From Metasolibacillus sp. (GTDB taxonomy: Bacteria; Bacillota; Bacilli; Bacillales_A; Planococcaceae): DNA of 64,000 nucleotides. The notes below the pieces were generated by a model that did no database searches, was not told the DNA's origin, and worked only from the letters and a program-made list of their open reading frames with translations. The stretch is from assembly GCF_025291715.1 (NCBI RefSeq), contig NZ_JAMBIZ010000013.1, forward strand, positions 1 through 64,000, in the 5' to 3' direction. The position numbers were made by a program, and so were the translations under genes. Positions 6,366-55,092 of this stretch are shown here, one piece after another. Within the stretch, counting starts at the first letter, position 1. Every line of letters starts with the position of its first letter.

Positions 6366-6404
6366 GTAACCCCCTTCCTTGTGTGACTTAGGAAGGGGGG
6401 TTAC
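6366..6404. terminator. Bidirectional terminator between convergent genes
   Basis: GTAACCCCCTTCCT and AGGAAGGGGGGTTAC pair almost perfectly around a ten-base loop between the 119-residue gene and the phosphotransferase gene. Confidence 0.8.
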
Positions 6405-7384
6405 TACGATATTTTGACTGCAAGACCCTTAGAAAATAAATACTGTTCCGCTTTTTCAATTCTTTCTCCCGTATGTTTTACAAATAACTCATAACGCCTC
6501 TTTAACCATTCAAACGTTCTATCTCGGATATGTACGTCGTCTGCTCCATATAGTAATGGAACTGCCTTAGTAAAGGAGTCAAAGCATAATAAGGCCTCAA
6601 AGCATTCTAAGTATTCAATTTCCTGATGATTGTTATTTTGATAAGCAGCTAATAAAGGTTCTTTAAAATCCATTCCAAACCAAGAGTATCCTAATACAAG
6701 CGTATTAGCTATATCAAAACGATGGTCTCCTAGAAAGGCTTTTTCCCAATCTAAAATATACAATTTGTTATCATTCGTCATTATCGTGTTCCAAAAATGA
6801 TAATCCCCATGATTTAGCACCTCGCTAAATTTTACACCTTTGAACGATTGCTCAATATTTTTCAGTATCTTTCTATAAATTGGGTCTTCAAATCCCTTAA
6901 CTCTATTTCTTAAGCTCCCTATGTAACCGTTTGACTGACTATTTTTAAAGTATCCATTATTTAGCTTATAAACATCAATGGAATGAATATGAGCTAATGT
7001 AGAACCAAAGCTTTCAAACGCCATCCTCGCATCGCTGGCACTAGCAGTAAAATATTTATCCAAGGTGAATCCCTCTATCTGTTCCATTAGCAAAACCCTA
7101 TTTTCTTTATCCTCAAAATAAATATTTGGGGTATTTATATAGTTCATAGATTGACTCTTTAAAATATGCAATTCTTTATTAAACTGCACATAATGACTAA
7201 ATTTTTTCAGCACAACTGGCCTAGAAAATTTCTCTGCTTTATGAAAGAAGCTAAGATGAAACATCGTTATCTCATTATTAAAGCCATCTTTATTTGTTTC
7301 TACATTATTGATCTCAACTACAGTCTCTAGCCCTGTATTTTTAATAATTAATTGTTCTACAGCTTGAATAATCGCTTCATTCAA
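6404..7384 (-). CDS. Aminoglycoside phosphotransferase (APH)-fold kinase
   Basis: A 326-residue protein of the APH/choline kinase family. The catalytic loop HGDYHFWN and the metal-binding ILDWE are both present, with RVLLMEQIEGFTLD as the hinge region before them. Such enzymes phosphorylate small hydroxyl compounds or antibiotics; which one applies here is not visible. The start at 7384 has GGAGG 12 bases upstream, a little far. The gene stands alone between convergent and co-directional neighbours. Confidence 0.85.
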   Translation of the reverse strand: MNEAIIQAVEQLIIKNTGLETVVEINNVETNKDGFNNEITMFHLSFFHKAEKFSRPVVLKKFSHYVQFNKELHILKSQSMNYINTPNIYFEDKENRVLLMEQIEGFTLDKYFTASASDARMAFESFGSTLAHIHSIDVYKLNNGYFKNSQSNGYIGSLRNRVKGFEDPIYRKILKNIEQSFKGVKFSEVLNHGDYHFWNTIMTNDNKLYILDWEKAFLGDHRFDIANTLVLGYSWFGMDFKEPLLAAYQNNNHQEIEYLECFEALLCFDSFTKAVPLLYGADDVHIRDRTFEWLKRRYELFVKHTGERIEKAEQYLFSKGLAVKIS

Positions 7385-7476: not shown

Positions 7477-7806
7477 TTAATTAAACGGCTCATAGTTTTT
7501 TAATTCATCAGCTGTCACTGGTGTACCATCGATTGTTCTAAACTCAACTTGACGTACATTGCCATGAGCAAAATAAGTATATTCTATATTCTCTTCATCC
7601 TTAAAAATAACTACTACATAAAAGGCTGGTAGCTTTTTCCCCCATACTCCCTCAATTGACTTAATTTCTTCTTTTTGATAGCCCTTCTCTTCAATAAGGT
7701 ATTCTGTTACTCTGTTGGCAAACATAACTTTATTACTTTGTACATAAAGAACGGGTAAAATTATAATTGCAATAATAAAAACTATCAAATACTTTTTCTT
7801 CGTCAT
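7477..7806 (-). CDS. Small membrane-anchored protein of the DUF3139 type
   Basis: About 109 residues: one N-terminal transmembrane helix (YLIVFIIAIIILPVLYV) then a soluble domain with EYLIEEKGYQKEEIKSIEGVWG and a conserved-looking YTYFAHGN stretch, the pattern of DUF3139 proteins of Bacillus (recognised from memory). Probably membrane-tethered with the domain outside. ATG at 7806 is preferred to the GTG at 7815 because the AAGGGAAG sits nine bases upstream of it. Function unknown. Confidence 0.72.
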   Translation of the reverse strand: MTKKKYLIVFIIAIIILPVLYVQSNKVMFANRVTEYLIEEKGYQKEEIKSIEGVWGKKLPAFYVVVIFKDEENIEYTYFAHGNVRQVEFRTIDGTPVTADELKNYEPFN

Positions 7807-7884
7807 TTTCACCACTTCCCTTCAGTTAAATGGCCTCTAAGTAAAAAGAAGGACTTATTAATCAATCCCCATGAATGAAGTAAC

Positions 7885-8115
7885 TTAATAAACATTATTT
7901 GAATTTTTCACATGGCTTGGGGTTATTAGTAGAGAGCTATTTCCATCTAAAATTAAATTAGTTAAATTTATTCCAGAGCCATAATAAAATGCTTGCCATA
8001 AAAACTTTGAACAGTAATTTGAATCAAGGCTACTTAATTTACCTCTCTCTATAAATATTGGTATATCAACGGTTTGACCCGATTTGATTACTGAAAAAAA
8101 TATTTTTTCTCGCAC
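7885..8115 (-). CDS. Doubtful small ORF, possibly a gene fragment
   Basis: A 76-codon frame starting with GTG. The encoded residues show no recognisable domain or membrane segment. The only Shine-Dalgarno-like sequence is a weak GAAAGAA very near the start. It may be the remains of a larger gene in the decaying island at 7.9-11.6 kb. Kept only because no other gene occupies the stretch. Confidence 0.25.
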   Translation of the reverse strand: MREKIFFSVIKSGQTVDIPIFIERGKLSSLDSNYCSKFLWQAFYYGSGINLTNLILDGNSSLLITPSHVKNSNNVY

Positions 8116-8182
8116 TTCTTTCTAGCTATTTTCTCCTTATTAAAATTACAATAAATTAAAAGGAAGTATTTATCACATGGAA

Positions 8183-8210
8183 AAAGCCACACCTGGTTAG
8201 ATGTGACTTT
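8183..8210 (-). terminator. Terminator of the two-gene unit 8228-9935
   Basis: Imperfect stem from AAAGCCACACC and GATGTGACTTT; on the minus strand it is followed by a run of T in GGCTTTTTCC. Confidence 0.6.
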
Positions 8211-8227
8211 TTTGAAGAAAGTTAAAA

Positions 8228-8914
8228 TTAGCTTTTTTTATTATTTTTTCTTTCTTGTAACATTGCGCTCATTTTTTCCGCCTGTTCAACCTTTTCCTTT
8301 TGTTTCTCCCTATCCAAAAACATCTTTAATTCTTTATAAATATTATCTTGTTCCACTTTCATGACTTTTTCAGATTCAAGATCTTGAAGATATCGATTAA
8401 CATCTTTTTCCAATATCATATAGATCAATGCCCCGAAACGAAATGCACTTAATAACATGTATACTAACAATAAAAGAGACACCACTGAAAAAAACCATTC
8501 TGTTTTACTGAAAACTGGTAGTACAAGTGATACCACTAGATAAAGAAACGATGCACCAAAAGCGTTTCGGATATAAATTATCAAATCTTTAAATTGCTGA
8601 GTTTTTAGAAGACTAAAAGAAGATTTGGATGATATAGTGGCCATCAATGTAAATGTAGTAAAATATATACCTATAAAAATAGCTGACAAAGTAATTAACG
8701 TGCTATCTCTATTTATAAACCATTCAGGTAATTTACTACTTATGATTATATCTATAGCGTCTGTGTAATTATCAAGTTTGCCTAAAGAAAATAATGTTAA
8801 AGTTTTCAATACAATGACTACTATGCAAAGGACAGTGATGACCCAACAAATAAACTTCTTTTCAAAAAACAAAAAAATCGAATCAAACTTTTTGTTTTCT
8901 AGAAATCTTTTCAT
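8228..8914 (-). CDS. Four-helix membrane protein of an unrecognised two-gene unit
   Basis: A 228-residue protein with predicted membrane helices near residues 22-45, 70-95, 105-130 and 138-170, then a highly charged, coiled-coil-like cytosolic tail rich in Glu and Lys (about 175-228). ATG at 8914 follows AAGGGA by ten bases. It starts 31 bases after the 329-residue gene and ends before a terminator, so the two form a closed two-gene operon. No family recognised. A membrane protein plus a cytosolic partner is a common plan in phage-defence modules (for example KwaA/KwaB), but nothing here proves that. Confidence 0.75.
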   Translation of the reverse strand: MKRFLENKKFDSIFLFFEKKFICWVITVLCIVVIVLKTLTLFSLGKLDNYTDAIDIIISSKLPEWFINRDSTLITLSAIFIGIYFTTFTLMATISSKSSFSLLKTQQFKDLIIYIRNAFGASFLYLVVSLVLPVFSKTEWFFSVVSLLLLVYMLLSAFRFGALIYMILEKDVNRYLQDLESEKVMKVEQDNIYKELKMFLDREKQKEKVEQAEKMSAMLQERKNNKKS

Positions 8915-8945
8915 ATTGTTCTCATCCCTTCGCTAAACTGTAAAT

Positions 8946-9935
8946 CTATTCGATTCGACTTGATTCTTCTCCATTACTGTATCGGTCTATTAATGGCAAT
9001 TCTTCACTTTGCAATGATGTTGTGACATGTCTCCACTCTTGATTAGCAAGTCTGTTAGATTGTTCATAATAGTAATTTGAAATTCCTATTGCTATAGACT
9101 CAAATGCAGTCGAATTACTATCTTCCATGATTACTCTCTTCAATTGCCCCTCGTTTTTTAAATCTGCTGTTTCTAATTTTCCTGAAGTCGGGTTTCTATA
9201 TTTTACTTTTACAGATGCAATATTATCATTCTCCATGTCTATAGCTTGTAAAAAGTTGATAAGTTCATCGAATTCCATAGGGCTATTTCTATATCTTCCT
9301 TGCCCTAAATTTATAGTAGCAATATTTGCACCTATTTCTCTAAATGATTCCGCAGTGGAATTTATTGCTGAGGTGATAGATTGAATTTTATTCCCCTCTG
9401 AGTTAAATAAATTAGATAGACCTGTCATTAAATCTAATTTTATTTCAATGCCACGTATATCATTAGAACTTCTTATTTTTTGGAAAGACCCCTCAGTTTC
9501 TATAGGAATCATTTCAAAATACCATCCTCCGCTTGTAGGGAGAAATGCATTTAAATATCTTTCAATATGTTTTGGTCGTGCACCAAAATGATTATATTCA
9601 ATAACAGCTAGATGGTAATCTGGAATAAACAAGCACGTTGTTAATTCCAATACATCTCCTGCAATCTCCTTTTTTTCATCAGTTCCTCTTCTTCCAGTAA
9701 AAGGCTTTTTATCTCGATAATTAGCAAAACCAACCAATCTGTCCATACTGTTATTATTAGGATTCATATTAGGTAAGAGCATTTCAATTAAAGAATATTC
9801 ACCATGCGAATTATGGACATACCTTTTTCCTTCATCCAAAGAAATAATACCATCGAGAAAATCAGATACTGATATACTTGTATACCCTCTATTATTTTTA
9901 AGAAACACGTTGAAAAATTGAATAGTAGTTGCCAT
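8946..9935 (-). CDS. Cytosolic protein, first gene of the unrecognised two-gene unit
   Basis: A 329-residue soluble protein with no signal or membrane segment. It opens with a beta strand (TTIQFFNVFLKNN), then a DVLELTTCLFIPDYHLAVIEYNHFGARPKHIERYLNAFL core, and a C-terminal half with alternating helices and strands (VKVKYRNPTSGKLETADLKN). The core vaguely recalls uncharacterised DUF6731-like proteins, which I cannot verify. AGGGGG precedes the ATG at 9935. It has its own promoter (9974-10001) and lies in an island with an integrase remnant and tRNA-Arg. A nuclease or sensor role would be speculation. Confidence 0.75.
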   Translation of the reverse strand: MATTIQFFNVFLKNNRGYTSISVSDFLDGIISLDEGKRYVHNSHGEYSLIEMLLPNMNPNNNSMDRLVGFANYRDKKPFTGRRGTDEKKEIAGDVLELTTCLFIPDYHLAVIEYNHFGARPKHIERYLNAFLPTSGGWYFEMIPIETEGSFQKIRSSNDIRGIEIKLDLMTGLSNLFNSEGNKIQSITSAINSTAESFREIGANIATINLGQGRYRNSPMEFDELINFLQAIDMENDNIASVKVKYRNPTSGKLETADLKNEGQLKRVIMEDSNSTAFESIAIGISNYYYEQSNRLANQEWRHVTTSLQSEELPLIDRYSNGEESSRIE

Positions 9936-9973
9936 TTTTTCATCCCCCTAAATCATCGACAATTTTATACAAA

Positions 9974-10001
9974 ATTATACTAGATAATCCAAGGGAATCA
10001 A
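9974..10001 (-). promoter_or_regulatory. Promoter of the two-gene unit
   Basis: On the minus strand TTGATT, a 16-base spacer, TATAAT, about 40 bases before the ATG at 9935. Confidence 0.55.
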
Positions 10002-10016
10002 AGAAAATATAAATAA

Positions 10017-10028
10017 GAACTTGTGTTC
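10017..10028. promoter_or_regulatory. SOS-box-like palindrome (GAAC-N4-GTTC)
   Basis: GAACTTGTGTTC fits the LexA/DinR core GAAC-N4-GTTC of Bacillus; the outermost C and G of the full box are A and T here. It lies 16 bases upstream of the -35 of the two-gene unit. Regulation by LexA is inference. Confidence 0.35.
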
Positions 10029-10070
10029 TCATTTTATCATACATCGAATTACATGTAAATAGTTATCATG

Positions 10071-10104
10071 AAAAAACATCGACCAAGGGGTTAGTCGATG
10101 TTTT
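10071..10104 (-). terminator. Terminator after the phage-regulator fragment
   Basis: ACATCGAC and GTCGATGT pair perfectly, flanked by A and T runs; on the minus strand six T follow. Confidence 0.75.
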
Positions 10105-10170
10105 CATAATTTGTCGATACTAGCATATTATCACGGTCACATTGCCCCTGTGAATGTCCTCGAATTGCTC

Positions 10171-10398
10171 TTATCCAAGCTTTAGACCATACACACCGAA
10201 CAAAAGTGTGGAAAGGTGCTCTGCTGCTGTATCTATCAATTTGTACACTGTACGATTATTTATTTCATAATGGTCTGCAATGGTTGAAATTTGCATGCAT
10301 TTTACATATCGTTTGTGTAAAATTTCGTAATTTTTACTTTCTTCGCGCTCACAAATATAAGCTAAGGCCTCTAAAGCCCTATCAAGATGTTTCACCAT
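10171..10398 (-). CDS. Phage late-regulator-like fragment (ArpU/RinA style)
   Basis: A 75-residue frame whose C-terminal half (YVKCMQISTIADHYEINNRTVYKLIDTAAEHL) is a sigma-like helix-turn-helix as in ArpU-type phage transcription regulators, normally about 130-150 residues. The N-terminal half of such a protein is missing and no convincing ribosome site precedes the ATG, so it is probably a truncated remnant. Family recognition is by pattern only. Confidence 0.5.
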   Translation of the reverse strand: MVKHLDRALEALAYICEREESKNYEILHKRYVKCMQISTIADHYEINNRTVYKLIDTAAEHLSTLLFGVYGLKLG

Positions 10399-10426
10399 CT
10401 CTATTGTACTAGCAGCTTTATGTAAT

Positions 10427-10450
10427 AAAAAAACACCCCGGAGGATGTTT
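10427..10450 (-). terminator. Terminator overlapping the end of the 63-residue ORF
   Basis: AAACACCC and GGATGTTT form a short stem; the minus strand continues with seven T. Confidence 0.6.
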
Positions 10451-10640
10451 AGTCTTTGTACTTATCCAAATAATCTGCTTCATTTACTAAATAAATATCT
10501 GGCATTGACTTATTTTCTGAATCTACGAAATGAAGAATTGAAGCTACCCTCGACGATTGTGTATATTTGAGATTAGCTTTTTTTGTTGTAGATATTGCAG
10601 ACTCCAATTTTTTAAATAAATCACCGCTTAGAATAACCAC
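10449..10640 (-). CDS. Small hypothetical protein in the decayed island
   Basis: A 63-residue frame beginning with GTG. A very strong GAGGAGG lies directly before it, though only one base separates it from the GTG, so the true start may be a few codons inside. It ends in its own terminator. The product is a soluble, charged protein of unknown function, perhaps a phage or island gene by context. Confidence 0.45.
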   Translation of the reverse strand: MVILSGDLFKKLESAISTTKKANLKYTQSSRVASILHFVDSENKSMPDIYLVNEADYLDKYKD

Positions 10641-10701
10641 ACCTCCTCTGCTGAGAGGGTATGAGTACTCTATTTCTCCTAACGGTGGATACCCACCTTG
10701 A

Positions 10702-11445
10702 TATGATCAAAGTAAAACAAAAGCAACTGTCCAAAAATTAAACACTCGCATCAGGGCTTGTGTAAAAGATGCTATAGATGACGGTTATATCCCTGTAGAC
10801 TTTACACGTAAGGTTGAAATTACAGCAACTAAAGCAGCGAAAAAAGATAGTGAAAAACATTTAGACTATCAAGAAAGCCTACAGGCGTATAACGAACTTT
10901 TCAATCGGCTCAACCGCAGCACTGACACGTATCATTTATTAATGGGACTCGTAGGAGGTCTACGATATGGTGAGTTGGTTGGCTTAACGCCTGATTGCTT
11001 CAACTTTAAAAAAATCAAATTTATATTCATCGAGCGTGGACTATAAAGAAGGATCTGGCTTCGTTGATTTAAAAAATACAAGTTCAGAACGTACAATTTC
11101 AATCGATAAGAAAGTAATGAATTTAAAAAAATTATTTTAGCTATGCCTGAAAATCCATTTAATCTAATTTTTTATCGCCCTACATCGGTTAAGGTAATTA
11201 CAAACGAAGGAGCTAACAAAGTACTTAAAGGGATGTTATCCGATTTAGACATTGATTCAATCACAGCTCATGGATTACGTCATACTCATGCAAGTGTATT
11301 ACTTTATAAAGGGGCAAATATTCACTCAGCTTCAAAACGACTAGGACATGCAACTATTCAAACAACATTGGATCATTACTCGCATGTTCTGAAAAAGATG
11401 GAAGAGCGTGATGAATTAATTGCGGTGAATGTCTATGTACAATAA
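10702..11445 (+). pseudogene. Frameshifted tyrosine integrase (phage/island type)
   Basis: Three frames joined give one integrase catalytic domain. Frame one reads from 10702 (YDQSKTKATVQKLNTRIRA) through VGGLRYGELVGLTPD, which carries the first catalytic Arg, and stops at the TAA at 11044. A second frame continues KEGSGFVDLKNTSSERTI to a TAG at about 11140. A third, 11143-11445, holds HGLRHTHASVLLYKG (His, Arg, His) and the LDHYSHV Tyr nucleophile. The N-terminal part is missing behind an in-frame TGA. At least two frameshifts make it inactive. Its end lies about 140 bases from tRNA-Arg, the usual attachment position. Confidence 0.88.
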
Positions 11446-11507
11446 GCTATTTAGCGTGCTCACCTTGTATACCTAAATTCAAAAACCTATCGTATTCCAA
11501 GAAAAGC

Positions 11508-11551
11508 AAAAGACGTTGAAACATTGATATATCAACATTTCTAACGTCTTT
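11508..11551 (-). terminator. Long hairpin, probable terminator of tRNA-Arg
   Basis: AAAGACGTT and AACGTCTTT arms plus inner pairs around TTGATATATCAA form a 44-base hairpin. The minus strand continues with a T-rich stretch, fitting the end of the tRNA transcript. Confidence 0.55.
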
Positions 11552-11587
11552 AAAATCACTCTCTGACCTGTGATTTTTGATTAAAAA

Positions 11588-11661
11588 CGTCCCCAGTAGG
11601 ATTCGAACCTACGACCGCGAGCTTAGAAGGCCCGTGCTCTATCCAGCTGAGCTATGGAGAC
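11588..11661 (-). tRNA. tRNA-Arg (anticodon TCT)
   Basis: On the minus strand the seven-base acceptor arms GTCTCCA and TGGGGAC pair; D-arm AGCTCAGCTGGATAGAGC, anticodon stem CGGGC/GCTCG with loop CTTCTAA giving anticodon TCT (reads AGA), and T-arm GTTCGAATC are all present. The CCA end is not encoded. The frameshifted integrase lies on its 3' side, so this gene is the likely integration site of the island. Confidence 0.96.
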
Positions 11662-11744
11662 AGTTGCTTTAATAACGCAATTGGTATTAAAGACAATATT
11701 TATTATATGAATAAAGCGTTATAAAGTCAACACAATTTTAAAAA

Positions 11745-54821: not shown

Positions 54822-55092
54822 ACAAAAAACCCCGCCCTAAAAAAGGGACGAGGTTGAATGTTCGCGGTACCACCCTAGTTATTGCTATTGCAATCACTTC
54901 ATTTACATAACGACGCGTTAAACGCCGGCTATTCTTTCTTCGATGCTGATGTGCGAATTCCCGAATAGCTGCTCGCGGGGTGAACTGTAGTGTTCGATTT
55001 CATTATGCAAGCTTTCAGTCGCGGCTTGCACTCCCTTAAATGAATCAATTGAACCTACTCTTCCCGGTCAATGCATTTATTTATACAATATG
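54822..55092 (-). promoter_or_regulatory. T-box leader RNA of pheST (tRNA-Phe sensing)
   Basis: On the minus strand, Stem I contains the AGAGTAG loop E piece and on its other side the specifier TTC (complement of 54982-54984), a Phe codon. The conserved T-box AGGGTGGTACCGCG is at 54863-54876, followed by the terminator CCTCG-CCCT / AGGG-GGGG with six T (54826-54852). Uncharged tRNA-Phe should open transcription into pheST. Confidence 0.94.

Follow-up and report, generated by a model that had tools for sequence, protein, structure and literature searches.

Gene pair in a decayed prophage island

The window, a 64 000-nt stretch of the Metasolibacillus sp. genome, carries two neighbouring genes, here referred to as A and B, within the remains of a prophage next to a tRNA-Arg gene. 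The following features were recognized in this region:

7885–8115, minus strand: small ORF on the left border of the island, probably what is left of the end of a phage gene (phrog_29771, positions 211–248 of 255, 8e-4)
8180–8212, minus strand: terminator 3' of B, formed by a hairpin and a T tract (folding energy −16 kcal/mol, z −5.8)
8228–8914, minus strand: gene B, 228 aa, PDC-M67B, with four transmembrane helices and a charged coiled C-terminus (PADLOC, helix prediction and adjacency to A)
8946–9935, minus strand: gene A, 329 aa, soluble, PDC-M67A/DUF6731, with a predicted RexA-like fold (PADLOC, Pfam, Foldseek, hhalign)
9974–10001, minus strand: candidate promoter of the A–B pair, TTGATT-16-TATAAT (10 of 12 consensus positions, not clearly above chance)
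10171–10398, minus strand: C-terminal fragment of a phage transcription-regulator-like gene (phrog_1558, positions 98–176 of 178, 2.6e-17)
11143–11445, plus strand: C-terminal fragment of a tyrosine integrase (Phage_integrase, positions 96–170 of 172, 2.7e-12)
11587–11662, minus strand: tRNA-Arg (TCT), the integration site, whose 3' end (11587–11616) provides the 30-bp direct repeat flanking another element in a genome of the same species

A is followed by B after a gap of 31 nt, both frames are intact and both genes have good ribosome sites (AGGGGGATGAAAAAATG for A and GAAGGGATGAGAACAATATG for B, read on the minus strand), just as an earlier sequence-only reading of this DNA had described. 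That reading also gave the pair its own promoter and its own terminator, and these two claims hold only in part. The promoter at 10001–9974 is plausible from its sequence, but the region contains 18 promoter-like matches against 13.4 ± 2.9 in shuffled sequences. The hairpin is clearly present, but it may be of chromosomal origin and perhaps was borrowed by the pair, since 37 nt that are 86% identical to positions 8173–8209 are also found in a genome of the same species (G529) that lacks the pair.

The island extends from ∼7913 to 11586, with the similarity between the window and G529 ending at ∼7912. As had been claimed, the pair lies intact amid decay: A and B are fully open, whereas the regulator, the integrase and the ORF at 7885–8115 survive only as end fragments, so that every recognizable phage gene in the island is truncated. 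Additional remnant traces, read from the sequence, begin at ∼10700, upstream of the integrase fragment. In G529, a different, ∼20.5-kb element occupies the same tRNA-Arg gene and has an exact 30-bp copy of the 3' end of the tRNA on either side, which makes this site an integration hot spot. This other element (L040/L041) encodes a serine-recombinase-like protein and several unidentified proteins. The outer 30-bp repeat is absent from the window, so the element there can no longer be delimited and constitutes a remnant. Elsewhere in the window, a phosphotransferase-like ORF with a TTG start (6404–7384; HGDYHFWNTI...LDWE) adjoins the island and is conserved in the same-species genome, and a T-box leader (Rfam RF00230, 107 bits) is found on the minus strand at 54841–55080.

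Given that the surrounding phage genes are broken and the strain-level distribution of the pair is patchy, A and B might simply be recently stranded prophage genes without a present role. Both frames are nevertheless fully open where every recognizable phage neighbour is truncated, and substitutions in the two genes are constrained relative to their relatives (dN/dS of ∼0.1 for A and ∼0.3 for B, with dS near saturation), albeit this constraint is not datable to the time after the decay of the prophage. We regard this explanation as the least probable of those considered here.

Family membership and distribution

The A protein matches the PADLOC model PDC-M67A (2.1e-66, residues 1–299) and the Pfam family DUF6731 (6.5e-12; 46 bits at a gathering threshold of 27), and the adjacent B protein matches PDC-M67B full length (1.7e-34), with the gene order the same as in PDC-M67. 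Both PDC-M67 models also match the relatives of the pair. By these model matches, the pair is an intact copy of the catalogued phage-defence candidate PDC-M67, for which no mechanism has been described; the names PDC-M67 and DUF6731 are not mentioned in the literature searched. The sequence-only reading had called the two genes unrecognized and had stated that their sequences identify no known system. The latter statement has to be dropped, as both genes are listed in PADLOC; the former survives to the extent that PDC-M67 is a candidate without a known function.

Analysis of the distribution of the family showed it to be rare: A is present in 4 of the 261 genomes of the order, with B found in exactly the same four, and, in a sample of 399 genomes from the phylum, only in the genome that contains the window. 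A tblastn search of plasmids and named phages with A gave no match, which indicates that the family seldom or never occurs in these replicons.

Gene neighbourhoods of the relatives

In all 12 loci measured, A and B are adjacent and co-directed, with gaps ranging from −10 to 65 nt, and wherever the B side of a locus was readable, B comes after A. This adjacency is kept in relatives down to ∼20–35% identity, which indicates that the pairing is more than chance. More distant DUF6731 genes from other families of Bacillota (L086, L087 and L088) are followed by a gene for a multi-helix protein of 147–198 aa; the DUF6731 gene is broken in L087 and L088. In L088 (5277–7550) it is interrupted by a transposase-like gene, with the membrane partner still open.

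Most of the loci are found in prophages. Four of these settings (L007/L012 from Halobacillus, L011, L016/L019 and L039) share the gene order repressor-type HTH – one or two genes – A – B – M78 (ImmA-type) protease – integrase; in L011 the nearest HTH gene lies 4 kb upstream, and in L016 and L039 the HTH and integrase genes were identified from sequence and position rather than by individual scans. BRCT-domain proteins, one of them with an exonuclease domain, are encoded just upstream of the pair in L011 (6099–7067) and L039 (10912–11862). In other prophages, the pair is located ahead of the packaging genes (L008/L013 and L015), after the small terminase (L022) or near the lysis genes (L018). 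In two genomes of the Psychrobacillus group (L005/L006), a diverged pair sits between genes for an MrcB_N-HTH protein and a Schlafen-type helicase on one side and mcrB, mcrC and hsdM on the other; this neighbourhood is a chromosomal defence island with no phage genes in view. The sequence-only reading had proposed a defence role for a soluble protein joined to a four-helix membrane protein, and the match to PDC-M67A/B, the constant pairing and the locations in prophages and in a defence island all speak for such a role.

The position close to a repressor in L007, L011, L016 and L039 also fits a role in lysogeny control, in which A would bind the control region of its own prophage and bias the choice between lysis and lysogeny, B would modulate this choice and any exclusion would be a by-product. 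Indeed, lambda RexA alone biases the bistable switch (PMC11077077). That explanation sits poorly with the pairs located well away from the repressor (L008, L015, L018 and L022) and with the pair in the chromosomal defence island of L005/L006, and we consider it quite improbable. The copy in the window is in a remnant that has neither the repressor nor the protease, so that placement in a lysogeny module is observed in relatives only.

Predicted fold of A

The AlphaFold model of A, built from eight sequences, is of moderate quality (pLDDT 64, pTM 0.52). In a Foldseek search of 350 542 PDB chains with this model, the top match was lambda RexA (8twq; E = 6.6e-5, probability 1.00), with an alignment of 323 columns over a chain of 275 residues. 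RdgC came second (E = 0.026), and CENP-N appeared twice among the weak matches (ranks 5 and 8). In the publication on the structure of RexA, RdgC and the CENP-L/N counterparts of yeast are given as its structural relatives (PMC11077077), so that the ranking is coherent beyond a single match. A search of BFVD returned five uncharacterized phage proteins (A0A8S5S8L2, A0A8S5QGP5, A0A8S5MSR5, A0A8S5PCY0 and A0A6J5Q1Z2) with the same predicted fold and E-values from 1e-6 to 1e-14.

The predicted order of elements in A, a mainly-beta N-terminal domain up to residue ∼158, a four-stranded domain (model strands 160–168, 205–211, 239–247 and 254–258) and C-terminal helices, corresponds to that in RexA, which has a split globular domain, a four-stranded dimerization domain and a C-terminal helix. 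The TM-scores are low (0.30–0.35), with an rmsd of 15.8 over both domains. Low TM-scores would be expected if the two domains were placed differently, and both an open and a closed form exist for RexA; still, caution is warranted. On balance, structure prediction supports a RexA/RdgC fold for A.

Sequence comparison of A with RexA

The profile of the A family (12 sequences) was aligned by hhalign to that of RexA (9 sequences). The alignment is co-linear and near full length, pairing residues 4–294 of A with residues 2–265 of RexA over 246–270 columns. Its global score of 20.9 exceeds the maximum of 17.8 obtained in 210 column shuffles, whereas the local score of 23.1 is below that of the best shuffle (25.6). 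When 139 targets were ranked against RexA, 138 of them being decoy ORFs from the same loci, the A family came first by both the global (23.4, next 13.4) and the local score (26.5, next 24.0), in a setting that favours it, since no other target was supplied as a profile. The HHalign probability of 2–22% is below the usual threshold, and an earlier alignment of A to only four RexA sequences gave scores within the shuffled range, with separation achieved only with the broader alignments. For calibration, Toast gp42 and Butters gp30, both accepted as homologues of RexA, were compared with lambda RexA in the same way and scored no better (global 0.1, local 24.6). Thus, the sequence comparison suggests, but does not prove, that A is homologous to RexA.

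The RexA and RexB models (PF15969 and PF15968 in Pfam, and RexA and RexB in PADLOC), which do match lambda RexA and RexB, matched neither A nor B, and phmmer and profile searches of the PDB sequences found nothing for either protein. As judged by these models, the pair is not to be filed in the RexA/RexB sequence families.

One segment of the hhalign alignment concerns the DNA contacts:

9188–9210, minus strand: basic strand SVKVKYR in A (residues 241–247), in which K245 and R247 align with R219 and K221 of RexA

R219 and K221 are required for DNA binding by RexA, and their loss abolishes it (PMC11077077). Basic residues at the positions of K245 and R247 are common, albeit not universal, across the A family. 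By alignment, K245 and R247 are putative DNA-contact positions of A.

The membrane partner

The B protein has hydrophobic helices at residues ∼21–39, 73–91, 118–136 and 140–158, followed by a long, charged, helical C-terminus, in full agreement with its earlier description as a four-helix membrane protein with a charged coiled tail. In the hhalign comparison, the score of B against RexB was within the range of the decoys, with an unrelated transporter scoring best, and Foldseek returned nothing for B below an E-value of 0.97. The RexBpp protein of Pseudomonas putida likewise has no detectable homologue (PMC12894663). The likeness of B to RexB is confined to topology and position, and this topology is not specific.

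Comparison with known systems

The A–B pair resembles lambda RexA/RexB in the predicted fold and element order of A and in having the soluble gene first and, after a short gap, a four-helix membrane gene second. Both are prophage-borne, and several PDC-M67 relatives lie downstream of a repressor, an arrangement close to cI-rexA-rexB. The two differ in the size of the membrane protein, with B (228 aa) carrying a charged C-terminal coil and RexB having only 144 aa, in the hosts, which are enterobacteria for lambda and Bacillota here, and in the ImmA-type protease that is often found downstream of PDC-M67.

Rex-like pairs of actinobacteriophages include Toast gp42/gp41, Butters gp30/gp31, CarolAnn gp44/gp43 and Sbash gp30/gp31. 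Neither pairwise comparison nor models detected any similarity between these pairs and A or B, and a BLASTP search of Toast gp42/gp41 with the two proteins gave no match. The proteins of Toast (337 and 200 aa) are similar in size to A and B, and the RexA homologue of this phage is a proven DNA binder. The respective region of this Gordonia phage (L090, 2115–6014) encodes a repressor, the RexA-like gp42, the membrane protein gp41, a metalloprotease, an HTH protein and an integrase. The order gp43-gp42-gp41-gp40-integrase is the same as in the four PDC-M67 loci of the prophage type described above, and the protease possibly belongs to a lysogeny-defence module that recurs. RexABpp of P. putida (PP_5643/PP_5644), which has been tested as a defence system (PMC12894663), is also a pair from a cryptic prophage that combines a soluble RexA-like DNA binder with a four-helix membrane effector; its host belongs to another phylum. 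No RexAB-type pair in Bacillota is described in the literature searched.

The same architecture could work with the opposite polarity, as published for Butters gp30/gp31 (PMC12894663; PMC7542560): the soluble A would act on phage DNA as the antiviral effector, and B would restrain it until infection, with the long charged C-terminal helix of B possibly serving as a docking arm for A. No feature in the sequence distinguishes this polarity from that of lambda. Among the five Rex-like pairs described, a single one works in this way (PMC12894663), and we consider it unlikely for A and B.

The sequence-only reading had likened the pair to Kiwa, whose plan is indeed a soluble DNA-binding protein together with a four-helix membrane protein (PMC12904381). 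In a Kiwa-like membrane complex, B would sense phage attachment and A would bind the incoming DNA. This general plan is where the likeness ends: the gene order of KwaA/KwaB is reversed relative to A–B, where the soluble gene comes first; A has no match to KwaB (PF16162) in Pfam, PADLOC or NCBIfam; its profile scores only 0.6 against KwaB over three columns (global; 17.0 local); KwaB is not among the best 50 PDB fold matches of A; and B has no match to KwaA in NCBIfam or PADLOC. A very low probability remains for such a complex, and lambda RexAB is the better analogue. The neighbouring ORF at 7477–7815 (DUF3139) has a weak NCBIfam match to KwaA (E = 0.014 over 29 residues), which was rejected as a chance similarity between membrane helices. 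This ORF is outside the A–B unit, as it is also found in G529.

Proposed mechanism

We propose that A and B probably form a RexAB-type two-gene phage-exclusion (abortive-infection) module that was brought by a prophage since decayed. The intact pair, its family, the constant pairing, the prophage and defence-island contexts and the topology of B were computed directly, and the fold of A is a prediction. In the proposed scheme, A would be a dimeric DNA-binding sensor with the RexA/RdgC fold, and the trigger would be particular DNA or protein-DNA intermediates of the replication or recombination of a superinfecting phage. Having sensed these, A would act on B, the four-helix protein of the inner membrane, which would then permeabilize or depolarize the membrane, bringing growth and phage production to a stop. 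DNA sensing, signalling from A to B and membrane damage are inferred by analogy with the RexAB systems of lambda, Sbash, CarolAnn and P. putida.

For the family as a whole, the chances appear evenly balanced that DUF6731/PDC-M67 represents a phylum-wide RexAB-type branch in Bacillota whose membrane effector is of a distinct kind and carries a coiled arm in the cytosol. If so, the RexA/RdgC fold would have been put to repeated use with several unrelated membrane effectors, in prophages of Gram-negative bacteria, actinobacteria and Bacillota as well as in defence islands outside prophages.

Implications

RexAB was the first abortive-infection system to be found, and the question of what RexA senses is now 70 years old. 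By January 2026, the number of Rex-like pairs described stood at only five (PMC12894663), and the DefenseFinder models detected RexAB in Proteobacteria only, with a warning from their authors that detection was limited (PMC9090908). Should PDC-M67 prove to be of the RexAB type, a defence candidate that so far lacked an explanation would gain a testable mechanism and the RexAB class would extend to Bacillota. This question could then be addressed with B. subtilis as a laboratory host, using new sequences and new phages.
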